NCBI GenBank assembly: GCA_009701715.1 | Contig: WLJO01000017.1 | Location: forward strand, 1-46,337 | Reading direction: 5' to 3' | Length of the DNA: 46,337 nucleotides | From: Actinomycetota bacterium | GTDB taxonomy: Bacteria; Actinomycetota; Acidimicrobiia; Acidimicrobiales; Ilumatobacteraceae | Shown here: positions 27,109 to 36,546 of the stretch, one piece after another | Numbering within the stretch: the first letter of the stretch is position 1 | Layout: each line of letters opens with the position of its first letter | Program-made: the position numbers and the translations under genes | Notes under the pieces: model-generated | The model's input: only the letters and a program-made list of their open reading frames with translations | Database searches by the model: none | What the model was told of the DNA's origin: nothing

Positions 27109-27260
27109 CGACCTTAGCGGGCAGGCCGGCCGGACTGGTCCCGGCTTCCCAAACAACGGAGTCTCACGCCATGGATATCGGTAGCGTCACCCTCACTCGG
27201 CGGCACCGCTCCGCCCGCTCGGACCCACCGGTCCCCTCGTGCGACGAGTCAGGAGCCCCT

Positions 27261-28211
27261 GTGTTCGCTCTCCGCCGTTTTGTTGTCCTTGCCGTGCTTG
27301 CACCCTGTGTGCTCGCAGCAGCCCTCGCGGTAACCCTTGCTTCGGCCGGTCCACCCCCCGCACCGTCTTCTGGGCACCCAACCGTGGATCCGGAGCGACC
27401 AGTTCGCATGCTCCCCACGATCAGCCGATTCCGGCCCTCACCCATTGGCGCGGCCCGGTCGATCAAGCCGATGGAGTACCACGGCGGACCCGTGATGACC
27501 GGACCGATCAAGGTGTACGTGATCTGGTATGGAAACTGGTCACGCAAGACCAGGCGGAGGGCGATCATCACCGACTTCCTCAACAATCTCGCCGGCCCAC
27601 GGTTCGCGATCAACATGACGTATCCCGATGCCTCGGGTGCGACCGTGGCGAACTCTCTCACCCTCGCCGGCCAGCACTTCGACCGGTACTCGGCCGGGCG
27701 CACGAGCGTCACCGACGCCAAGATCGGGCGCATCGTCGCCTCGGCGATCCGCTTGGCCAAGTTGCCGTCGGACCCGAACGGCATCTACCTCGTGCTGACC
27801 AGCAACGACGTCGGCAAGCCGGGCTTCCTCACCCAGTACTGCGGGTGGCACTCGTTCCGCAGGATCGGTGCACACAGCATCAAGTACGCGTTCGTCGGGG
27901 ATCCCACCGGACCGAACCTGCTCGTGTGCGGAGCCCAGAAGGTGTCCCCGAACGCCGACGCGGGCGCTGACGCGATGGTGAGCGTCATCGCCCACGAGAT
28001 CGATGAAGCGGTCACCGATCCAGAATTGAACGCGTGGTACGACAGCACCGGAGCGGAAAATGCAGACCGATGCTCCTGGAGTTACGGGCCCACGTTCCCG
28101 GTCGGGCGCGCCAAGGCCAACGTGCGGTTGGGCACCAGAAACTTTCTGATCCAGCGCAACTGGCTGAACACCGCCCGGGGCGGGTGCGTGCTCGAGGTTC
28201 CGCCCGCCTGA
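27261..28211 (+). CDS. Secreted EXORDIUM/phosphate-induced-protein-1-like protein
   Basis: 316 residues from GTG 27261, supported by AGGAG five bases upstream; an open frame from 27171 lacks a ribosome site. The N-terminus is a signal peptide (RRFVVLAVLAPCVLAAALAV, cut near 29). The mature part has GPIKVYVIWYGNW, AHEIDEAVTDPEL followed by AWYDSTGAENADRC, the hallmark blocks of the plant EXORDIUM/PHI-1 family. HEIxE resembles a metalloprotease-type metal site. The protein should be extracellular. EXORDIUM proteins influence growth in plants; the bacterial role is unknown. A strong hairpin follows. Confidence 0.88.
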   Translation: MFALRRFVVLAVLAPCVLAAALAVTLASAGPPPAPSSGHPTVDPERPVRMLPTISRFRPSPIGAARSIKPMEYHGGPVMTGPIKVYVIWYGNWSRKTRRRAIITDFLNNLAGPRFAINMTYPDASGATVANSLTLAGQHFDRYSAGRTSVTDAKIGRIVASAIRLAKLPSDPNGIYLVLTSNDVGKPGFLTQYCGWHSFRRIGAHSIKYAFVGDPTGPNLLVCGAQKVSPNADAGADAMVSVIAHEIDEAVTDPELNAWYDSTGAENADRCSWSYGPTFPVGRAKANVRLGTRNFLIQRNWLNTARGGCVLEVPPA

Positions 28212-28229
28212 GCACATCGTCGCAGTTCA

Positions 28230-28267
28230 CCGCGGGTGTCAGCACCTTCCGATGCCGACACCCGCGG
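28230..28267. terminator. Long-stem hairpin after the EXORDIUM-like gene
   Basis: CCGCGGGTGTC and GACACCCGCGG form a perfect 11-bp stem with a 16-base loop, 18 bases after the stop codon. No U-run follows directly, only CCTTT a few bases on. A terminator role is inferred. Confidence 0.65.
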
Positions 28268-28313
28268 AACGGGCGGCCCTTTGCGGATCGGCAGCCGGCC
28301 GCTCCCCACCGGA

Positions 28314-28325
28314 CCACAATTGTGG
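28314..28325. promoter_or_regulatory. Perfect 12-bp palindrome CCACAATTGTGG upstream of a cell-wall gene
   Basis: It is the only AT-centred symmetric site in the 178-base gap between the EXORDIUM-like gene and the peptidoglycan-binding protein, 64 bases before the latter's ATG. It may be an operator; the regulator is unknown. No ydaO/c-di-AMP riboswitch core was recognisable here. Confidence 0.3.
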
Positions 28326-28389
28326 TTTCTGTAATGTGTTCGTAACCTTGGCCCTGCAAAATGGTCCGGGCTACTGCGGGGGATTGGCG

Positions 28390-29124
28390 ATGCGTACACG
28401 TTCACGGATGACACGGCGCGTTGCCGTCGTCGCAGCCGTAGTTGCGTGCTTGTCCGTCGGCTCGCCCGCCGCTGGAGCCATTGATCGGGCCCCGGCCTCA
28501 TCTTCCCGCCCGTCTGTGAGCGCGTCTGTGTCTGCGTCCGTGTCTGCGTCTGCGTCTGCGTCGTCGTTCAAGGCACTGCGGCGCGGCGACAGCGGCACCC
28601 GCGTCCGCCGGTTGCAGCACGCCCTGAAGAAACGCGGCTTTCATGTCGCCATCAACGGCAAGTTCGGACCGCTTACCCAAGCTGCCGTTCGCCGCTTCCA
28701 GCGGATCCGTCGCATCAAGGTCACCGGCACGGTAGGTGCTCAGACCTGGAGAGCACTCGGGCTGCCGCTCCCAGCGACGAAGCCGAACCCAACGACCACC
28801 ACGCGTCCACCGGGCGTGTACCGACACCCGAGCGCGGCCGTCGAGCGCTGGCACGCTGTCGCCATTCAGGTCGGCTGGGCAGAACGCGATTGGAAGCGCC
28901 TCAGTTGCGTCATCCAACGCGAGAGCAAAGGCAATCCGAAGGCCCAGAACCGGTCGACTGCTATGGGACTGCTCCAGATCCTGTACCGCGTCCACCGCGT
29001 GTGGGTCGGCCCCGACGCCACGATTCTGCTGGACCCGGCAACCAACCTGAAGTTCGGGTTGAAGATGTTCAAGGGCCGCGGCTGGAAGCCGTGGGCGTCA
29101 GTCAGCCGCCTCTGCGACGCCTGA
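28390..29124 (+). CDS. Secreted peptidoglycan-binding protein with lysozyme-like (SLT) domain
   Basis: 244 residues from ATG 28390, with GGGGG upstream. It opens with a signal peptide (TRRVAVVAAVVACLSVGSPAAGA), then a Ser-Val/Ser-Ala repeat linker (42-59). A PG_binding_1 domain follows (LRRGDSGTRVRRLQHALKKR...GTVGAQTWRALG, 63-124), then a Pro/Thr linker and a lysozyme-like transglycosylase domain (CVIQRESKGNPKAQN, likely catalytic Glu178; TAMGLLQI). It should cleave or remodel peptidoglycan outside the cell, similar in design to resuscitation-promoting or SLT proteins. Confidence 0.9.
   Translation: MRTRSRMTRRVAVVAAVVACLSVGSPAAGAIDRAPASSSRPSVSASVSASVSASASASSFKALRRGDSGTRVRRLQHALKKRGFHVAINGKFGPLTQAAVRRFQRIRRIKVTGTVGAQTWRALGLPLPATKPNPTTTTRPPGVYRHPSAAVERWHAVAIQVGWAERDWKRLSCVIQRESKGNPKAQNRSTAMGLLQILYRVHRVWVGPDATILLDPATNLKFGLKMFKGRGWKPWASVSRLCDA
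28511..28566 (+). repeat. GTCTGC/GTCTGT-type simple repeat encoding Ser-Val/Ser-Ala linker
   Basis: Imperfect six-base units (GTCTGC, GTCTGT, GTCCGT) encode an SVSASVSASVSASASAS-like flexible linker between signal peptide and peptidoglycan-binding domain. The unit keeps frame, so length can vary by slippage without disrupting the protein. Confidence 0.85.
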
Positions 29125-29184
29125 CGAGTCACACCACGCCGGCGCCGGCGCGAATGCGCACGTCGTTGCTCTGCGAACCGAGTG

Positions 29185-30096
29185 TCATGCGGCGGTGCGT
29201 GCGAACTCAACCAACACGTCAGCGAGTTCCGTGCCGCAGTCTTCCTGGAGGAAGTGACCCCCGCCTGCAATCGTGACGTGCACCTGACCGTCGCAGCCGG
29301 GAACCTCGCGCAGGAAAATCCGCTCACCGCCCTTGGTGATCGGATCGCTGTCGCTGAAGGCGAGCAGGAACGGACGGTGGAAGCGTCGTAACACATCCCA
29401 TGCTGCAGCATTGTCCGCCGAAGCCGGGTCATCGGTTGAGGTGGGCACGAGGGAGGGGAACACCCGCGCACCCGCCGTGTAGGTCTCGTCGGGGAAGGGG
29501 GCGTCGTAGGCCGCCACGACGGCAGGGTCGAGCGGGTTCACACATCCGTTGCTGACGATGCGTCCGATCTGAAAGCCGGGCGACTCGCGGGCGAACCGCT
29601 GCCACGCAAGGAACGCGTCCGTCGGCGCTCGATCGCCGACGGGCATGCCGCCGTTGCCGATAGCGACCCGGGCGAAGCGATCGGGCTCCTGCGCCACAAG
29701 TCGCAACCCGATGAGTGCGCCCCAATCCTGACCGAACAGGGTGATCGAGCGCAGGTCAAGGTGGCCGAACACGACCTGTGCCATCCACGAGACGTGTCGC
29801 GCGTAGGAATAGTCGGATTGCTCGGTCGGCTTGTCGGACTTCCCGAACCCGACGAGATCGGGGGCAATGCACCGGAACCCTGCAGCCGCGAGCACGGGGA
29901 TCATCGTGCGGTACAGGTACGACCACGAAGGCTCGCCGTGCATCAGCAGCACGACCGGCGCATCCGACTGGCCCTCGTCCACGTAGTGCACACGCAGGTG
30001 ACCCCCCTCGAAGTCGCCGATGTCGACATAGCGGGGCGCAAAGGGATAACCCGGGAGACCGTCAAACCGTTCGGGGGATGTCCGCAGAGCGCGCAT
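29185..30096 (-). CDS. Haloalkane dehalogenase (HLD-I type alpha/beta hydrolase)
   Basis: 303 residues. Closely resembles the DhlA subgroup: HGEPSWSYLYR (oxyanion region), IAPDLVGFGKSDKP, and LFGQDWGALIG with Asp124 as nucleophile next to Trp125, the halide-binding position. FSDSDPIT supplies the acid (about Asp251) and GGGHFLQED the His (281). Asp rather than Ser in the nucleophile elbow separates it from esterases. It hydrolyses carbon-halogen bonds in haloalkanes; epoxide hydrolase activity is a less likely alternative. It starts 24 bases after modC on the same strand and could be read through from the mod promoter. Confidence 0.88.
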   Translation of the reverse strand: MRALRTSPERFDGLPGYPFAPRYVDIGDFEGGHLRVHYVDEGQSDAPVVLLMHGEPSWSYLYRTMIPVLAAAGFRCIAPDLVGFGKSDKPTEQSDYSYARHVSWMAQVVFGHLDLRSITLFGQDWGALIGLRLVAQEPDRFARVAIGNGGMPVGDRAPTDAFLAWQRFARESPGFQIGRIVSNGCVNPLDPAVVAAYDAPFPDETYTAGARVFPSLVPTSTDDPASADNAAAWDVLRRFHRPFLLAFSDSDPITKGGERIFLREVPGCDGQVHVTIAGGGHFLQEDCGTELADVLVEFARTAA

Positions 30097-30120
30097 TTAC
30101 TCAGTGTCCCACAACCCTGT

Positions 30121-31191
30121 TCAGGCGGGATAGCCGATGATCTCCGTCGCCTTCACCGAGATCCACACCGTCTGCCCCACGGCGAGGTCCAGCGCAATGA
30201 GCGCTGCCGGCGTGATCTCGGCAACGAGCGGAACCGTGCCGGTCACGCGCACACGCACACGGTCGGCGCGGCGGTCGAGATCGGTCACCGTGCCGCTCCA
30301 GACGTTGCGTGCGCTCCCCTCGGGCTCGCGACGGTGCAGCGCAACGGACTGTGGGGTGACTGCCACGAAGGCAGGGCCCGACAGCGCGCTGTCGGCAGCG
30401 ACCACCTGCGTGCCGTTCGGCAGGTGCAGCACCCCGGCGCGCATCTCGCCGGCGAGCAGGTTGAGCCCGACAAGGTCCGCGACGTATCGCGATCGTGGGT
30501 GCATCGTGACCTCGTCGAGGGTGCCGGTTTGGGCCACGCTGCCCTGCTCGAGGACGACCACACGGTCGGCGAGCGCATAGGCATCCACTGGGTCGTGCGT
30601 GACGATCAGCCGCACCCCCGGGAAGGCCGCTAGTTGACGGCGGAGGTCGCTTCGCACCTCGGCGCGGGTGAGCGCATCGAGCGCGGCCAGTGGTTCGTCG
30701 AGGAGCAACACGGAGGGCTCCACGGCGAGTGCCCGCGCCAGCGCCACTCGCTGTGCCTGTCCCCCGGATAACTGGTCCGGGCGATTGTGTGCACGTTCGC
30801 CGAGCCCCACTCGATCGAGCAGTCCAAGGGCGGTTGCGCGTGCGCTGCTCGCCCGTATTCCGCGTGCCCGCAGTCCGAACGCCACGTTCTCGAGCACCGA
30901 CAGGTTCGGGAACAGCGCATAGTCCTGGAAGACGACCCCGATGCCACGGCGCTCGGGCGGCACGAACGTGTCCGATGCAGGTTCGTCCCACAGCGTCACT
31001 CCCCCTCCCTCGCCTACCACCTCGATACGTCCACCGTCGAGCGCCAACAGACCGGCCAGCACGCGGAGCACGGTGGACTTGCCGGCGCCGTTCGGGCCGA
31101 GCAGCGCGACGGTCTCCCCCGCCTCGACAGCGAAGGACACATCGAGGGCGAACGAGCCCCTCGTCACCTGTGCGTCGACCAGCAGTCTCAC
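30121..31191 (-). CDS. modC: Molybdate ABC transporter ATP-binding protein ModC
   Basis: 356 residues from GTG 31191, overlapping the modB stop (GTGA). Walker A GPNGAGKST (32-40), Q-loop Gln89, signature LSGGQ (141-145), Walker B VLLLDEP (161-167), H-loop in VTHDPVDAYALAD. The C-terminus (about 295-356) is a TOBE/Mop domain (WSGTVTDLDRR...AEITPAALIALDL...VWISVKATEI), which binds molybdate or tungstate in ModC. It drives molybdate import with ModB and ModA. The C-terminal Mop domain resembles that of the divergent regulator. Confidence 0.95.
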   Translation of the reverse strand: MRLLVDAQVTRGSFALDVSFAVEAGETVALLGPNGAGKSTVLRVLAGLLALDGGRIEVVGEGGGVTLWDEPASDTFVPPERRGIGVVFQDYALFPNLSVLENVAFGLRARGIRASSARATALGLLDRVGLGERAHNRPDQLSGGQAQRVALARALAVEPSVLLLDEPLAALDALTRAEVRSDLRRQLAAFPGVRLIVTHDPVDAYALADRVVVLEQGSVAQTGTLDEVTMHPRSRYVADLVGLNLLAGEMRAGVLHLPNGTQVVAADSALSGPAFVAVTPQSVALHRREPEGSARNVWSGTVTDLDRRADRVRVRVTGTVPLVAEITPAALIALDLAVGQTVWISVKATEIIGYPA

Positions 31192-32015
31192 GGCGCGGCC
31201 ACCGAGGTTCGCCCCGACGGCGCGCCGAGCCAGCGGTCTCGCAGGCCGAGCAATACGGCGAACGACACTGCAATGAGCGCGAGGCTGAGCACGAGTGCGG
31301 ACTCCGGGTCCGACTCGAGCGCGAGGTAGGTGGCGAGCGGCATTGTCTGCGTGCGTCCGGGAAGATTCCCGGCGAAGGTGATCGTGGCGCCGAACTCGCC
31401 GAGTGCCCGGGCCCACGACAGTACGAGGCCGGCGATGAGTGCGGGTCGAACGGCGGGCAGGGTGACCCGCCGGAAGACGGTCCAGCGGGATCCACCGAGC
31501 GTTCGGGCTGCGTCGCCGAAGCGGGGGTCCACCTGACGCAGCGCTGCCTCGACGGTGAGGACGAGGAACGGCATCGCTACGAACACCTGGGCCACCACCA
31601 CCCCGGCCGTGGTGAACGGCAGGCGGATCCCGAACCAGCGGTCGAGGTACTGGCCAAACAGCCCGCGCCTCCCGAACGAGAAGAACAGCGCAACGCCGCC
31701 GACCACGGGGGGCAACACCATCGACAGCGTGCTCAGAGCACGGACGATCGACCGACCGGGGAAGTCGAACTGGGCGAGCACCCAGGCAAGCGGCACCCCG
31801 AGTGCGAGCGAGACGACCGCTGCGAGCACCGATGTTTCCAGCGAAACGCGCAGCGCTTCCCGCACGGCCTGGTCGCCGAGTACCGACCCCACGCGGCTCC
31901 ACGGCATGCGCCAGAGGATGCCGACGAATGGCAGCGCGAAGAATGCGACGGCGAGACCGGCAAGGAGGAGGGCGAGGGTGGGCGGGCGGGATTGCCCGAC
32001 CCGGCGGCGTGTCAT
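31188..32015 (-). CDS. modB: Molybdate ABC transporter permease ModB
   Basis: 275 residues with about six membrane helices. The EAA loop is recognisable as DAARTLGGSRWTVFRRVTLPAVRPALIAG, and ARALGEFGATITFAGNLPGRTQTMPLATYLALE is a hallmark of ModB/CysT-type permeases. ATG overlaps the modA stop by four bases and its stop overlaps modC, so the three genes are translationally coupled. It is the inner-membrane channel for molybdate (or tungstate). Confidence 0.95.
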   Translation of the reverse strand: MTRRRVGQSRPPTLALLLAGLAVAFFALPFVGILWRMPWSRVGSVLGDQAVREALRVSLETSVLAAVVSLALGVPLAWVLAQFDFPGRSIVRALSTLSMVLPPVVGGVALFFSFGRRGLFGQYLDRWFGIRLPFTTAGVVVAQVFVAMPFLVLTVEAALRQVDPRFGDAARTLGGSRWTVFRRVTLPAVRPALIAGLVLSWARALGEFGATITFAGNLPGRTQTMPLATYLALESDPESALVLSLALIAVSFAVLLGLRDRWLGAPSGRTSVAAP

Positions 32016-32809
32016 GGCCGACCGAAGCCGAACCTGGCGAGGATGGCCTGCCCGGCCGGCGAGCGCACGAACGCGACGAAGCGCGCAGCGGCATCGGGGT
32101 GTTTCGACGCGGCGGGCACGGCGATCGGATACGTAGCCACCACGTTCACCGGCCCGGGGATGTCCACCCCGAGTGCCTTCGAACCTGCCGCAAGGACGTC
32201 GGTGACGTACACGATCCCGGCGTCGGCCTCGCCGAGCACCACCTTGTTCACGATGCCCTTGACGTTCGCCTCGAGCGACTTCGGTGCAGCGATCACGCCT
32301 GCAGCTGCCAACACCTGCTGCGTGTACCGGCCGATCGGAACCTGGGGCGCGGCTGAGACGAACACGACGTCGGCCCGAGCGAGATCTGCGAGCCCGATGA
32401 TCCCCTTCGGGTTCCCCGGCGCAACGATGATCTGCAGACGGTTCGTTGCGAAGTTCTCCGGTGCGCCGTTCGTGCCGGGCTCCAATCTGCCCATGCTCTC
32501 CCCGTCAGCCGAGGCGAAGACGTCGGCCGGTGCACCCTGATTGATCTGGGCAACCAGCTCTGACGAGGCGCCAACGCTGAATTCGACCTTCGCATCCGGA
32601 TAGGCAGCGGTGTACGCAGTGCCAATCACGCCGAATGCTCCGGTGAGCGACGAAGCGGCGAACACCGTGATCGGCGCATCGGGGTCGGTATCGATCGTCA
32701 CCCGCTTCGTCGAGCACGCACTCATGCCAACAACGAGACCGAGCGCGAGGCCGAGAAGCCCGAACACCCGACGGGGACGTGCCGCTGACACTGTGGTTCG
32801 GTGCCTCAT
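32012..32809 (-). CDS. modA: Molybdate-binding lipoprotein ModA
   Basis: 265 residues. The signal peptide ends in VGMSAC, a lipobox with the lipidated Cys at 32. The mature protein shows ITVFAASSLTGAF, KVEFSVGASSELVAQINQGAPADVFASAD, GEADAGIVYVTD and YPIAVPAAS, standard ModA blocks that ligate the oxyanion. It is anchored on the outer face of the membrane and delivers molybdate to ModBC. The transcript probably begins only a few bases before the ATG. First gene of modABC. Confidence 0.95.
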   Translation of the reverse strand: MRHRTTVSAARPRRVFGLLGLALGLVVGMSACSTKRVTIDTDPDAPITVFAASSLTGAFGVIGTAYTAAYPDAKVEFSVGASSELVAQINQGAPADVFASADGESMGRLEPGTNGAPENFATNRLQIIVAPGNPKGIIGLADLARADVVFVSAAPQVPIGRYTQQVLAAAGVIAAPKSLEANVKGIVNKVVLGEADAGIVYVTDVLAAGSKALGVDIPGPVNVVATYPIAVPAASKHPDAAARFVAFVRSPAGQAILARFGFGRP

Positions 32810-32819
32810 GGTCCGAGGC

Positions 32820-32840
32820 TATATTCAGATACTGACTATA
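32820..32840. promoter_or_regulatory. Candidate molybdate-regulator operator (9-3-9 inverted repeat)
   Basis: Arms TATATTCAG and CTGACTATA are inverted repeats matching at 8 of 9 positions around the spacer ATA. The site lies in the 72-base gap between modA and the PadR-Mop gene, and covers the modA promoter and part of the rightward -10 element. One dimer could repress both. ModE sites of proteobacteria also have TATA-rich arms, but spacing differs. Confidence 0.65.
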
Positions 32841-32842
32841 AT
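32837..32842 (+). promoter_or_regulatory. -10 element of the PadR-Mop regulator gene
   Basis: A perfect TATAAT lies 40 bases before the regulator's ATG (32882), overlapping the end of the inverted repeat by four bases. No good -35 is seen 17 bases upstream. GGAG before the ATG provides a ribosome site. Confidence 0.5.
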
Positions 32843-32881
32843 CAACTCATTGACTGACGTATCGCTGGAGGGGTTCTCGAG

Positions 32882-33670
32882 ATGGCAACACGACGTGACC
32901 AGCCCTCCAACCTCGCGGAACTCGTCTGCCTCACCCTCGTCATCCAGGGCGCTGAGCACGGCTGGGCCATCGGGTCGCAACTCGCGCCGGACGGCCCACT
33001 CGGTTCGATCTGGTCGCTGAGTAGACCACTGACGTACCGGGCAATCGAGTCGTTGGTGGAACAGGGGCTCGTCACGCGCTCGGGCGCCCAGCCCGGCCGC
33101 GGGCGGGAACGGTCGCTGCTGCAGCCGACCGCTGTGGGCAGAACAACGTCTGAGCGCTGGCTGGGTACGCCGGCCGAGCACCTTCGCGACCTCCGTACTG
33201 AGTTGTTGCTCAAGCTCACGCTGCGCCAACGGGCAGGCCAACCGATTGAGCCCCTGCTGGATGCCCAGGAGCGAGCGCTGCAACCCGCCTTCGACGCCAT
33301 CGCGCAGCGCGATCCGGGCGGCGATCTCATCGCCCTCTGGCGCCAGGAGAACGCCCGGGCAGCCCGGCGCTTCCTCCGACAGGCCCGAGAGGCCCAGCAC
33401 GCGCGGGACGGTGTGGCGGTTTCGCGTCGCCCCGAGGTCCGCCTCAGCGCGAGAAACCAGTTGAGGGTCACGATTGACAGCATCGCCCGCGGCGACGTGA
33501 TGACCAGCGTGAAGGCGCTGCTCCCCGACGGTCAGCGGCTGACTGCGGCGATCACCAGCGATGCCGTGGACGAACTCGACCTGGCTGCGGGGGACGAGGT
33601 GGTGATGATCGTGAAATCCACCGAGATCATGGTTGCCAAGGCCGAGGGCGCACCGGGTCCGTACGGCTAG
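32882..33670 (+). CDS. PadR-type winged helix fused to a molbindin (Mop) domain; ModE-like regulator
   Basis: 262 residues. The N-terminal ~90 residues are a PadR-like winged helix (LAELVCLTLVIQGAEHGWAIGSQL...LTYRAIESLVEQGLVTR...GRERSLLQPTAVGR), followed by helical residues to ~185. The C-terminal 188-256 is a Mop domain: LSARNQLRVTIDSIARGDVM, LTAAITSDAVDELDLAAGDEVVMIVKSTEIMV, as in ModE and ModC. Divergent from modABC, with an inverted repeat between. The natural reading is a molybdate-sensing repressor of modABC that uses a PadR instead of a ModE HTH. Overlaps the convergent SDR stop by four bases. Confidence 0.88.
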   Translation: MATRRDQPSNLAELVCLTLVIQGAEHGWAIGSQLAPDGPLGSIWSLSRPLTYRAIESLVEQGLVTRSGAQPGRGRERSLLQPTAVGRTTSERWLGTPAEHLRDLRTELLLKLTLRQRAGQPIEPLLDAQERALQPAFDAIAQRDPGGDLIALWRQENARAARRFLRQAREAQHARDGVAVSRRPEVRLSARNQLRVTIDSIARGDVMTSVKALLPDGQRLTAAITSDAVDELDLAAGDEVVMIVKSTEIMVAKAEGAPGPYG

Positions 33671-34635
33671 ACCGAGATCTGGCTGGAGCACCAGTCCCAG
33701 AGCGCTTGCCTTCGCTCCGGGGTGTCCGAGCGCTTGGTGAACCCGAGCCGGTGGATCGGTCGCCGCTCGCGATCGTGCCAGAACCCACCATTCGACTCGA
33801 GCGGCGCGCCATCGTCGGCGGCAAGCCACAGCGCGGTGTCCGCACCCTGCTCAACGGTCCGCAGCAAGGGGCGCATCACGCGCCGGAAGGCCGGGAGCGA
33901 CTCCTGCACACCGGGTGTGTCTGCCCAACCGGGATGGACGGCGTGGAAGTGGACACCCTGCCCGGGGTGGTGCTGTGCCCAGAGTTCGTTGAGGGTGACC
34001 TGTGCGCGCTTGGCCCGGGCGTACTGCTCGGCGCCGCGGTAGTCCTCGCCCATCTCGAGGTCCTCCACGCGCAGCGGTGACGCGTACATTCCGCCGGAGG
34101 ACATCGTGATCACACGTGACGGGGCACTGGCACGCAAGCGATCGAGGAGCAACGACGTGAGCAGGAACGGACCAAGCACCTGGGCCGCAACCGTGGACTC
34201 GTGCCCCTCGGAATTGAGCATCCGGGTTGGGGCAAGTGCCCCCGCGTTGTGCACCAACACGTCCACCCGCTCGTGGCGGGCCAGGAGTTCGGCTGCTCCC
34301 CGACGGATCTCATCGGGTTCGGACATGTCGGAAACCACGACATCGAGGGTGGCATTGCCGGTCGAGCGCGCGATTGCGTCGCGCGCGTCCTCTGTCCTGC
34401 CAGACGAGCGACCCCAGAGCACCACCGTTGCACCGCAACGGGCGAGGGTCTCGGCCATCGAGCGGCCGAGGCCCGAGGTTGCTCCGGTGACCACCACGGT
34501 GCGACCGGTGAGGCTGTACTGATCGACCGGGCGCCAGTGCTCGAGGCGGGAGCGCACGTCGTAACCAACCCGGGTGAAGCTCGTGACAATCGGGATCTCG
34601 ATCGCTGAGTCCGCAACATGCTTCCAGTCGACCAT
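33667..34635 (-). CDS. Short-chain dehydrogenase/reductase (retinol dehydrogenase-like)
   Basis: 322 residues from ATG 34635; the frame runs on upstream as antisense of the dioxygenase gene. The cofactor site is TGATSGLG (50-57), VLVHNAGALAP is the NAG block, and ITMSSGGMY with YARAK gives the Ser-Tyr-Lys active site. The long N-terminal lead (ahead of residue 44) and the late HAVHPGWADTPGV match DHRS/retinol dehydrogenase-like SDRs. Only 30 bases separate its start from the divergent dioxygenase start, so both messages probably have little or no leader. Substrate unknown. Confidence 0.9.
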   Translation of the reverse strand: MVDWKHVADSAIEIPIVTSFTRVGYDVRSRLEHWRPVDQYSLTGRTVVVTGATSGLGRSMAETLARCGATVVLWGRSSGRTEDARDAIARSTGNATLDVVVSDMSEPDEIRRGAAELLARHERVDVLVHNAGALAPTRMLNSEGHESTVAAQVLGPFLLTSLLLDRLRASAPSRVITMSSGGMYASPLRVEDLEMGEDYRGAEQYARAKRAQVTLNELWAQHHPGQGVHFHAVHPGWADTPGVQESLPAFRRVMRPLLRTVEQGADTALWLAADDGAPLESNGGFWHDRERRPIHRLGFTKRSDTPERRQALWDWCSSQISV

Positions 34636-34665
34636 CGTCCCAGTGTGCCCGCTACCGTCACGAAC

Positions 34666-35445
34666 GTGACGACCGATCTCATGCCGGCCGTGTTCATCGG
34701 TCACGGCAGCCCGATGAACACGCTCGAGCACAACCGCTACACCGAGCTGTGGAACTCGTTCGGCTCGTCGGTCCCCGGGCCGCGCGCCGTGCTGTCCGTG
34801 TCGGCGCATTGGTTCATCAACGCAACTGCCGTCACCGCAATGGCGCAGCCCAAGACCATCCATGACTTCTTTGGCTTCCCCGACGAACTGTTCGCCTTCG
34901 AGTATGCAGCACCCGGCTCACCCGAAATCGCGCAGGAGATCGCCGACACGGTTGCCCCGGCGTGGGTTGGCGCGGACCGGGACAGCTGGGGCCTCGACCA
35001 CGGCACCTGGTCGGTGCTCGCGCACATATACCCGAACGCCGACGTGCCGGTGCTGCAACTGTCCATCAACGCTGCTGCACCTGCCGATTACCACGTGCAA
35101 CTCGGCGCGGCGCTGGCCCCACTGCGCGCGCAGGGCATCCTCGTCATCGGCAGCGGCAATGTGGTGCACAATCTCGGTCGCCTTGACTGGGCGAGCCCAG
35201 ACGCTGCCTACGACTGGGCGCAGTCCTTCGACGAGGAGGCCGAGCGAATCATGACCGAGGAACCGGGTGACGTGCTCTCGCTGCTCGAGCACCCGGCGTA
35301 CTCGCTGGCTGCACCGACACCCGAACACTTTGTCCCACTGCTCTACCTCGCAGGGCTCGCCAATGCTGCAGGGACGACATGCGAGAAACTCATCGGCGGG
35401 TACGCGCTCGGGTCGCTGTCGATGACGTCGTACGTCGTGCGCTGA
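34666..35445 (+). CDS. DODA-type extradiol ring-opening dioxygenase (LigB/YgiD family)
   Basis: 259 residues from GTG 34666 (ATG 34681 is the alternative; both give the same core). LigB-type blocks: MPAVFIGHGSPMN, VLSVSAHWF, LDHGTWSVLAHIYP, PVLQLSINA, VIGSGNVVHNLG. The His residues in GHGSP, SAHW, DHGTW and VVHN are the expected zinc/iron ligands and acid/base of DODA-type 4,5-dioxygenases. It opens catechol-type rings between or next to hydroxyls, or acts on a related phenol. The hydratase-like gene 0.3 kb downstream would fit a meta-cleavage route. Confidence 0.92.
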   Translation: MTTDLMPAVFIGHGSPMNTLEHNRYTELWNSFGSSVPGPRAVLSVSAHWFINATAVTAMAQPKTIHDFFGFPDELFAFEYAAPGSPEIAQEIADTVAPAWVGADRDSWGLDHGTWSVLAHIYPNADVPVLQLSINAAAPADYHVQLGAALAPLRAQGILVIGSGNVVHNLGRLDWASPDAAYDWAQSFDEEAERIMTEEPGDVLSLLEHPAYSLAAPTPEHFVPLLYLAGLANAAGTTCEKLIGGYALGSLSMTSYVVR

Positions 35446-35462
35446 CCCGAAACGCCGGGCAG

Positions 35463-35657
35463 TCAGGCCTCGATGTGGATGGCGCGCTCGGGGCAATTGC
35501 CCTCGGCCCGGCGCACCTTGGCCTCGAGCGCTACCGGGATGTCCCCGGTGATCAGCACCACCGAGTTGCCGTAGTCGTCTGCCCCGAACACCTCGGGCGC
35601 TGCGATACCGCACATCTGGTGGCCCTGGCAACGATCTCCATCAACGGTTACTCGCAT
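35463..35657 (-). CDS. 3Fe-4S-type ferredoxin of P450 systems
   Basis: 64 residues; ATG preceded by AAAGGGGG. The cluster motif is CQGHQMC near the N-terminus and NCPERAI near the C-terminus. His in the CxxHxxC position is characteristic of the single-cluster ferredoxins that feed actinobacterial P450s. It may also serve a Rieske oxygenase. The P450 fragment at 25 kb is dead and no intact P450 is in the window, so its partner lies elsewhere. It converges with the dioxygenase gene. Confidence 0.93.
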   Translation of the reverse strand: MRVTVDGDRCQGHQMCGIAAPEVFGADDYGNSVVLITGDIPVALEAKVRRAEGNCPERAIHIEA

Positions 35658-35757
35658 TGGTTCCCCCTTTGAATGCCGTCATGTTACGCCGGGGGCCCGG
35701 GGTGCCGCTCCACCACGGATGATCCGGATAGGTTCGGCAGCCGAGGAGCACGAGCGG

Positions 35758-36546
35758 ATGTACGACAACAACGAAATCGCAATTGCTATCGAGGAAGCCC
35801 GGCGCAGCGCCACCACCCTGCGGCCCTTCACCGAGCAGGATCCCCTGCTCACCCTCGACGACGCCTACGACGTGATGCAGCGTGCATCCATTGCGCGCTC
35901 GATCTCCACGGGAGCACGGCCCGTCGGCCGCAAGATCGGCTTTACCAACACCACGATCTGGGACCTCTACGGCGTGTATGCGCCGATCTGGGGATGGATG
36001 TACGACGACTCGCTGGAACTCTGCAGCCAGGGCGAGGGGACCGTTGCTGCAGACACGCTGTGCCAACCGAGGTCCGAGCCAGAAATCGTGTTCCGGCTGT
36101 CGGCGGACGTCCCCTCAGGAGCGAGCACCGAGCAGATCGCGGACTCCATCGAGTGGGTGGCCTTCGGCTTTGAGGTGGTGCAGTGCCACTTCCCTGCATG
36201 GAAGGTCACCGCCATAGATTCCGTCATCGACGGATCGCTGCACGGAGCGTCACGCGTCGGGGCCCAGGTGGCACCGTGGGGAACGATGATCGAGGATCTC
36301 GAGCGCTTCACACTTCGACTGCTCCGCAACGGTTCGGTCATCGATACTGGCTATGGATCCAATGTGCTCGGCAGTCCGTTGTACGCCATCGCCCACCTCG
36401 CCCGTACCGCCGCGGTCCCACTGCACGCCGGGGAAATCATTACCACCGGAACTGTCACCGACGCAGCCTGGGCCTCCGCCGGCGAGACCTACACCGTTCA
36501 GATCGACGGCCTCCCACTCGAGCCACTGACGTTGCGCTACGTCTAG
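35758..36546 (+). CDS. 2-keto-4-pentenoate hydratase-like protein (MhpD family)
   Basis: 262 residues from ATG 35758 with GAGGAG upstream; ATG 35719 adds 13 residues but has no ribosome site. MhpD-type blocks are RKIGFTNTTIWDLYGVYAPIWG, SEPEIVFRL (metal-binding Glu pair), GFEVVQCHFPAWKV, and the C-terminal LHAGEIITTGTVTDAA. Family members add water to 2-hydroxy-dienoates or decarboxylate 4-oxalocrotonate in meta-cleavage pathways. Placement beside a DODA-type dioxygenase supports a ring-cleavage role, though the exact reaction cannot be told. Confidence 0.88.
   Translation: MYDNNEIAIAIEEARRSATTLRPFTEQDPLLTLDDAYDVMQRASIARSISTGARPVGRKIGFTNTTIWDLYGVYAPIWGWMYDDSLELCSQGEGTVAADTLCQPRSEPEIVFRLSADVPSGASTEQIADSIEWVAFGFEVVQCHFPAWKVTAIDSVIDGSLHGASRVGAQVAPWGTMIEDLERFTLRLLRNGSVIDTGYGSNVLGSPLYAIAHLARTAAVPLHAGEIITTGTVTDAAWASAGETYTVQIDGLPLEPLTLRYV

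Follow-up and report, generated by a model that had tools for sequence, protein, structure and literature searches.

Does a protein that joins a PadR-like DNA-binding part to a molbindin (Mop) domain do the work of ModE, the known molybdate regulator, at a modABC locus? The question is raised by a 46,337-nucleotide stretch of DNA from a bacterium of the Ilumatobacteraceae, hereafter called the window, in which a sequence-only reading had described such a gene, padR-mop, and had proposed its product as a likely non-ModE molybdate sensor.

Organization of the locus

The padR-mop gene is an open reading frame of 262 codons, supported by domain matches and by full-length homologues in other genomes that are at most 71% identical. 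As the sequence-only reading had claimed, modA, modB and a modC-like gene lie opposite to it on the minus strand, in this order from position 32809 down to 30121, and the divergent genes modA and padR-mop are separated by an intergenic region of 72 bp.

32882–33670, plus strand: padR-mop gene, 262 amino acids
32012–32809, minus strand: modA, molybdate-binding protein (TIGR01256, 120.5 bits, cut-off 62.5)
31188–32015, minus strand: modB, permease (TIGR02141, 228 bits, cut-off 182.6)
30121–31191, minus strand: modC-like ATPase carrying a C-terminal TOBE domain of its own (ABC_tran and TOBE matches)
32818–32845, minus strand: TTGATT-N16-TATAGC, candidate modA promoter identified by eye

The product of the modC-like gene scored 213 bits with the modC equivalog model, below the cut-off of 285. 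A consensus promoter scan found no promoter-like site, and the candidate modA promoter rests on inspection by eye. In positions 28000–36000 of the window, an Rfam search revealed no Moco riboswitch and no other accepted RNA element, the sole match, to a microRNA model, reaching 27.5 bits against a gathering score of 96. The 2.8-Mb genome contains only two TOBE matches, the padR-mop product and ModC. It also contains eight MoCoBD_1 matches above the cut-off, which we take to be of the xanthine dehydrogenase/CO dehydrogenase type, and because of these eight matches the molybdenum demand is probably high. Elsewhere in the window, the product of positions 27171–28211 contains a domain of the Phi_1 type (phosphate-induced protein 1; E 9.5e-33). 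This is odd for a bacterium, Phi_1 being a plant-type family.

The PadR part and the Mop domain

Three domains were distinguished in the padR-mop product.

32912–33127, plus strand: PadR-type winged helix, residues 11–82 (AlphaFold2 model, Pfam PadR, Rv1176c match)
33131–33406, plus strand: PadR-type C-terminal helical domain, residues 84–175 (model, 8ioi_A match)
33446–33634, plus strand: single Mop/TOBE domain, residues 189–251 (Pfam TOBE, TIGR00638)

The AlphaFold2 model, obtained with an alignment of 61 family members (mean pLDDT 90), displays the winged-helix elements H11–21, H27–34, H48–60, E64–70 and E77–82, followed by the helices 84–95, 101–117, 123–142 and 149–175 of the helical domain (block pLDDT 85–98). 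A low-confidence linker then leads to the Mop barrel at residues 193–252. The sequence-only reading had the Mop domain either replacing or extending the PadR helical domain; replacement was rejected, as all four helices between residues 84 and 175 are present in the model, according to which Mop is appended behind a complete helical domain.

The match of the protein itself to Pfam PadR (PF03551, residues 17–89) has an E-value of 8.4e-4 and, at 19.7 bits, falls short of the gathering score of 27; the MarR_2 match of the N-terminal part is weaker still (E 0.027). PF03551 was found at E ≤ 0.01 in all 34 family members scanned, out of 61 then collected, with a best value of 3.3e-11. When a profile of the PadR part was compared to the PDB, the matches were AphA (7.5e-16), PadR (1.8e-12) and Rv1176c (1.6e-10). 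Comparison of the fold to PadR and ModE, which had been suggested as a check, gave Rv1176c as the top PDB match in VIA-align 2 (Z 13.8, 166 residues, rmsd 3.9), ahead of further PadR and MarR proteins at Z 10–13 (MarR about 11); the 8ioi_A match covers model residues 7–174, that is, both the winged helix and the helical domain. Foldseek also ranked Rv1176c first (E 6.4e-6), with ModE close behind (E 1.5e-5) and TM-scores near 0.22. These sequence and model comparisons support a DNA-binding domain of the PadR type rather than the ModE type, in line with the claimed PadR-like winged helix. The B. subtilis PadR box is ATGT-N8-ACAT, of which the window contains 4 matches with at most one mismatch (6.06 expected), none of them near 32800–32900. 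PadR operators vary, and this absence therefore does not rule out membership in the family.

The claimed C-terminal molbindin domain was recovered above the cut-offs of both Pfam TOBE (PF03459, residues 189–251, E 1.6e-16, 60.7 bits, cut-off 22.3) and TIGR00638 Mop (66.6 bits, cut-off 55). Pfam detected one TOBE stretch and the AlphaFold2 model contains one Mop domain. Residues S189, R191, T225 and K245 are invariant in the eight fused proteins aligned; of these, S189, R191 and K245 correspond in the alignment to S-x-R and K of S. ovata Mop. Passages of PMC11980592 name Ser4, Arg6, Lys60 and Ser40 as the oxyanion-contact residues of Tub; T225 is, by our own mapping, a candidate for the fourth contact position. 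The Mop domain is 53–55% identical to short Mop frames in genomes G060 and G064 and less close to the TOBE domain of the window's ModC (39%).

Search for ModE

In the genome of the window, the only match to the ModE DNA-binding domain (TIGR00637) scored 24.5 bits on another contig, far from the cut-off of 98.5, in agreement with the claim of a non-ModE system. None of the 60 relatives searched had a ModE above the cut-off either, making 61 family-positive genomes out of 159. Since ModE did not exceed the cut-off in any of them, the padR-mop product is the best candidate molybdate regulator. Two genomes contain ModE-like DNA-binding domains of 73–79 bits, below the cut-off (G230:C36:5192-5395 and G251:C78:1278-1493), and each also carries an unfused family member. 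According to passages of PMC545781, the ModE box is ATCGNTATATA-N6-TATATANCGAT; its core has no match with up to three mismatches in the window.

Family members with and without Mop

Homologues were collected in two rounds. A sample of 395 genomes of the class yielded 77 with a match, from which 61 loci with the PadR part (E ≤ 5.2e-22), the window included, were fetched; Mop-only matches, weak PadR matches and G278 were excluded. A sample of 221 genomes from the bacterial family, taken to be the Ilumatobacteraceae, yielded 140 with a match, of which 98 new loci were analyzed, the remaining matches being already in the first set or left unfetched. The resulting 159 homologous loci comprise 118 unfused members without Mop, 36 fused members and 5 that are cut by contig ends. 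ModA or ModB was found in the fetched stretch of 142 of the 159 loci; the other 17 include some short contigs and L036 (genome G275), a fused gene with modABC approximately 9 kb away on the same contig.

The sequence-only reading had suggested a search for the PadR-Mop architecture next to modABC elsewhere, and all 33 fused genes with a ModA match are divergent from modA. Among the unfused genes, 53 are divergent from modA and 37 lie on the same strand. A peptide-pattern scan of a species-genome collection gave 25 loci in which the match extends into Mop, with a divergent modA in 22. In a draw of 396 genomes from the phylum, 11 genomes within the class matched at 1e-54 or better (1e-68 to 1e-55) and one more at 6e-16. 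An extension of the family beyond the class was rejected, as the matches there were weak (best 3e-22) and were taken as generic PadR. Our sequence comparisons thus delineate a family of PadR-type proteins, likely regulators, that is linked to mod genes in one actinobacterial group, the class Acidimicrobiia. Three loci (L114, L120 and L123) come from public records titled Acidobacteria or Bifidobacterium breve; the titles of these MAGs look wrong, and the locus is actinobacterial.

It is not through Mop that this PadR is tied to molybdate. Because 118 of the 159 members lack Mop, the domain is not essential for the link to mod genes, and because the unfused members are mostly mod-linked (modA or modB lies within the DNA fetched for 104 of the 118), Mop appears to have been added to an already mod-linked PadR. 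Fused and unfused relatives occur even inside single genera (g9, g11, g15 and g395). A quick tree of 159 rows gives three changes of fusion state, one being possible too, and on the tree of 61 rows a single origin of the fusion is compatible with the data (p-AU 0.20). No Mop remnant was found downstream of the closely related unfused gene L258.

No TOBE match at E ≤ 0.001 was found in nine genomes, each at least 90% complete, that have an unfused member (G071, G279, G273, G039, G122, G376, G254, G251 and G201). The fused genes form a window-like clade A and a clade B, and in five clade B genomes (G153, G091, G202, G356 and G372) the fused TOBE is the only TOBE match above the cut-off, so that ModC seems to have lost its own TOBE domain in these five. 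A stand-alone Mop protein as the general partner of unfused PadR was rejected, since a short frame above the cut-off is present in only 2 of 60 genomes (G142 and G111); G054 additionally has Mop in a longer frame. In G142 (L126, 292–543 and 524–1561), a stand-alone Mop frame lies behind modABC, with operator-like copies before modA, and the unfused PadR of the family is on another contig. It is possible that G142 has a two-part version of the PadR/Mop switch.

A conserved operator upstream of modA

32822–32838, unstranded: primary operator TATTCA-GATAC-TGACTA, 11 of 12 positions matching the family consensus TAGTCA-N5-TGACTA

The 9-3-9 inverted repeat of the sequence-only reading is present as described (TATATTCAG-ATA-CTGACTATA at 32820–32840, 8 of 9 pairs), although its natural unit is 6-5-6 and a weaker copy lies 22 bp off. 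By itself it is within chance, as an equally good repeat, with spacers of 0–12 allowed, turned up in 129 of 2000 dinucleotide-shuffled versions of the 72-bp intergenic region. The upstream regions of homologous loci have a family operator of 17 bp, TAGTCA-N5-TGACTA, and the window's 11 of 12 matches to it were reached in none of the 2000 shuffles. The repeat is weak alone; its conservation in homologous loci, the absence of which the sequence-only reading had named as refuting, carries the case.

In the 61 loci (466,807 bases) we found 22 exact, 16 one-mismatch and 21 two-mismatch operator sites, as compared to 0, 0.25 and 2.95 expected from first-order Markov sequences. Positions 32822–32838 are the sole match with at most one mismatch in the genome of the window. 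At up to three mismatches there was no excess in the entire window (5 matches, 4.47 expected). A wider regulon was rejected: the genome has 10 further two-mismatch places, and the reversed control pattern gave 40 against 11, no excess. The operator lies between the -35 and -10 elements of the candidate modA promoter and shares two bases with the -10.

The operator stands upstream of modA whether the genes are divergent or in one operon. Where padR ends a modABC-padR operon, it stands before modA (L051, L054–L057, L061, L064 and L072); in L058 and L059 it lies between padR and the downstream mod genes, and in L048, where modABC and padR are apart, it occurs at both promoters. In G275, with its fused gene approximately 9 kb away, a two-mismatch operator is located at the start of modA. 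Some loci have no operator within two mismatches, for example L035, L042, L053, L062, L063, L073, L080 and L093. When the best strict match was sought throughout the fetched stretch, it reached 11 or more of 12 positions in 83 of 104 linked unfused loci versus 5 of 33 fused loci, the strict score understating clade B because its consensus has shifted.

A second site 22 bp from the operator

32844–32860, unstranded: weaker second operator-like site AACTCA-TTGAC-TGACGT, 8 of 12 positions matching, 22 bp from the primary site

A second site at this distance was suggested by the clade B fused loci together with the window's direct repeat ACTGAC at a spacing of 22. The best site of a locus served as its primary site, and second sites at distances of 18–60 bp were scored with the degenerate pattern TAGTYM-N5-KRACTA. 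The distance of 22 bp was best or tied in 7 of 8 clade A loci (contig-cut L037 counted in) and 17 of 17 clade B loci, that is, in 24 of 25 fused loci, which are related and hence not independent events, versus 5 of 51 unfused loci. Mean matches (out of 12) at 22 bp were 8.50 in clade A and 9.18 in clade B, as compared to 4.53 and 4.87 at other distances; the unfused loci had 4.43 and 4.50, respectively. Thus, 22 bp is the distance with the highest mean in both fused clades and not in the unfused loci. The prediction was fixed before further loci were fetched. Among the 11 new fused loci, 22 bp was best or tied in 7, and 8 had at least 9 of 12 matches there; among the 56 new unfused loci that have a primary site, it was best or tied in 3. 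The strict pattern gave a weaker result, with 22 bp best or tied in 7 of 8 loci of clade A, in 8 of 10 of clade B and in 7 of 10 of the new fused loci.

The first analysis left out L036 for want of a primary site, L123 because it is cut ahead of its start, and L103, L105, L108, L112, L113, L119 and L120, which are on the same contigs as first-set loci; a primary site was present in 51 of its 52 unfused loci by the degenerate pattern and in 46 by the strict one. In the second set, 27 fused loci were scored, 16 of them previously seen under other names and counted apart, with L262 unscored; four contig-cut loci, two of them best at 22 bp, were kept apart, and 10 of 66 unfused loci had no usable primary site.

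The fused loci without the pair are all window-like: L104 among the first 25 and L259, L260 and L261 among the 11 unseen. At 22 bp, 9 of 12 positions match in unfused L235 and L252, and contig-cut L246 on the same branch is also paired (8–9 of 12 across the three loci). Other unfused loci have good second sites at other distances, namely L075 and L091 at 21 bp (10 of 12), L221 and L245 at 20 bp, and L214, L247, L249, L250, L251 and L256 at 23–24 bp. The operator layout, single or paired at 22 bp, changes along with the fusion, and the pairs suggest, as far as sequence can tell, Mop-bridged PadR dimers on tandem sites.

Proposed mechanism

We consider it probable that the padR-mop product is a local regulator of molybdate uptake, which would bind the operator and shut off modABC when its Mop domain holds the oxyanion. 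A PadR-type dimer would contact the 17-bp operator directly, between the -35 and -10 elements of modA, and would also cover the start region of padR-mop itself. Binding of molybdate (or tungstate) by the C-terminal Mop domain is predicted to tighten DNA binding, such that plentiful molybdate would turn modABC off, and probably the regulator's own gene too. We infer repression by the molybdate-loaded protein from need and from the operator position.

Passages of PMC11980592 describe Tub as a trimer of dimers with oxyanion sites at inter-subunit interfaces, and its authors hold a TOBE dimer to be necessary for binding in ModC and TupC. Because Mop oxyanion sites form between Mop domains and each PadR chain has one Mop, Mop-Mop contacts would be required, either inside one PadR dimer or from one dimer to another. 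The paired operators would be accounted for if dimers two helical turns apart were in contact, and in the fused members such contacts would probably join two PadR dimers on operators 22 bp apart.

More tentatively, PadR-type regulators may do ModE's job throughout the Acidimicrobiia, descending from a Mop-less ancestor that sensed molybdenum status. Later capture of a molbindin at the C-terminus in one lineage may have led from a single strong operator to two weaker ones spaced by 22 bp and bound cooperatively via molybdate-filled Mop-Mop interfaces. The 22-bp pair in unfused L235 and L252 lowers the odds of this scenario and raises those of a second site that is not tied to Mop.

Alternative explanations

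The part played by Mop could be smaller than proposed. If the PadR part itself were the sensor, of molybdate, a molybdopterin or the state of the transporter, as it would be in unfused members, Mop would be an add-on for oligomerization or oxyanion buffering, as might be expected from the 118 of 159 members that lack Mop, 104 of which have modA or modB within the DNA fetched, and from the nine genomes, at least 90% complete, that combine an unfused member with no TOBE at E ≤ 0.001. However, the candidate Mop ligand residues are invariant in the eight fused proteins aligned and the operator layout shifts with fusion, and we find this explanation unlikely. We are less dismissive of the view that the 22-bp second site is an inherited promoter sequence or a loosely spaced helper instead of an operator tied to Mop, which is doubtful but deserves weight: the fused loci are related, the window's second site matches at just 8 of 12 positions, the pair is missing in four fused loci, 9 of 12 positions match at 22 bp in unfused L235 and L252, and good second sites occur at 20–24 bp in some unfused loci (e.g., L075 and L091). 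Against it, 22 bp has the top mean in both fused clades and not in the unfused loci, and it holds in most loci of genus g391, which were fetched after the distance was fixed.

The sign of regulation could also be the opposite, with molybdate freeing the protein from DNA or the protein activating modA under molybdate shortage. Several PadR proteins are released from DNA by their ligand, and sequence cannot show the sign. The wording for ModE differs among papers, as passages of PMC2408646 have ModE upregulating modABCD, whereas the title of a paper cited there has "repressor" and passages of PMC11980592 describe ModE, here the functional analogue, as a repressor of modABCD transcription. Together with an operator inside the candidate modA core promoter, as fits a repressor, this makes the opposite sign improbable in our view. 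We give hardly any credence to a truncated or derived ModE. It would share the overall plan, an HTH plus Mop, and Foldseek does place ModE second (E 1.5e-5, TM-scores near 0.22), but the ModE sequence match is confined to the Mop part, the DNA-binding part matches PadR/AphA and the window has no ModE box; a ModE origin of the N-terminus was rejected on these grounds.

Relation to known systems

Like ModE of the E. coli type, the padR-mop product is a one-component protein that is linked to modABC, carries Mop behind a DNA-binding domain and has the same presumed job. It differs in having a PadR-type domain plus helical domain, one Mop domain where ModE has two, and the operator TAGTCA-N5-TGACTA in place of the ModE box. 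With B. subtilis PadR, V. cholerae AphA and M. tuberculosis Rv1176c it shares the winged helix and the C-terminal helical domain, and it is set apart from them by the extra Mop, a different operator and the linkage to molybdate transport. The molbindins Mop, ModG and Tub share the Mop domain, with the S-x-R and K positions and a candidate T/S position, but are storage or homeostasis proteins without a DNA-binding domain.

Regulators with a single TOBE domain were already known: passages of PMC11980592 describe ModE-like single-TOBE and TaoR-like regulators, in which the DNA-binding domains are HTH-9 and HTH-17, with PadR not named there. Also known, from passages of PMC545781, are the lone ModE DNA-binding domains and separate Mop chimeras of Desulfovibrio, where mod operons have a conserved palindrome and a Mop-less regulator, as in our unfused members; the domain is of the ModE type, however, and the modABC cluster there encodes an integrase-Mop chimera. 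Among the matches listed in the open-access literature, judged by titles and starts of abstracts, no PadR-TOBE or PadR-modABC regulator was recognizable. Passages of PMC6147048 contain nothing on ModE, Mop or TOBE, and PMC12857756 has one mention each of PadR, modABC and TOBE. New here is the second operator-like site at 22 bp, usual in Mop-fused loci and rare in unfused ones.

Implications

The family likely does, judging from its position beside the pump genes and the common DNA site before them, what ModE does elsewhere. It thereby provides a candidate for the control of molybdate uptake in actinobacteria without ModE above the cut-off (61 genomes searched of 159), some of them from lakes according to the record titles. 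With fused and unfused relatives in one family, it also lets one compare, in nature, a regulator before and after the acquisition of a sensor domain, with an apparent change of operator layout accompanying the gain of Mop.
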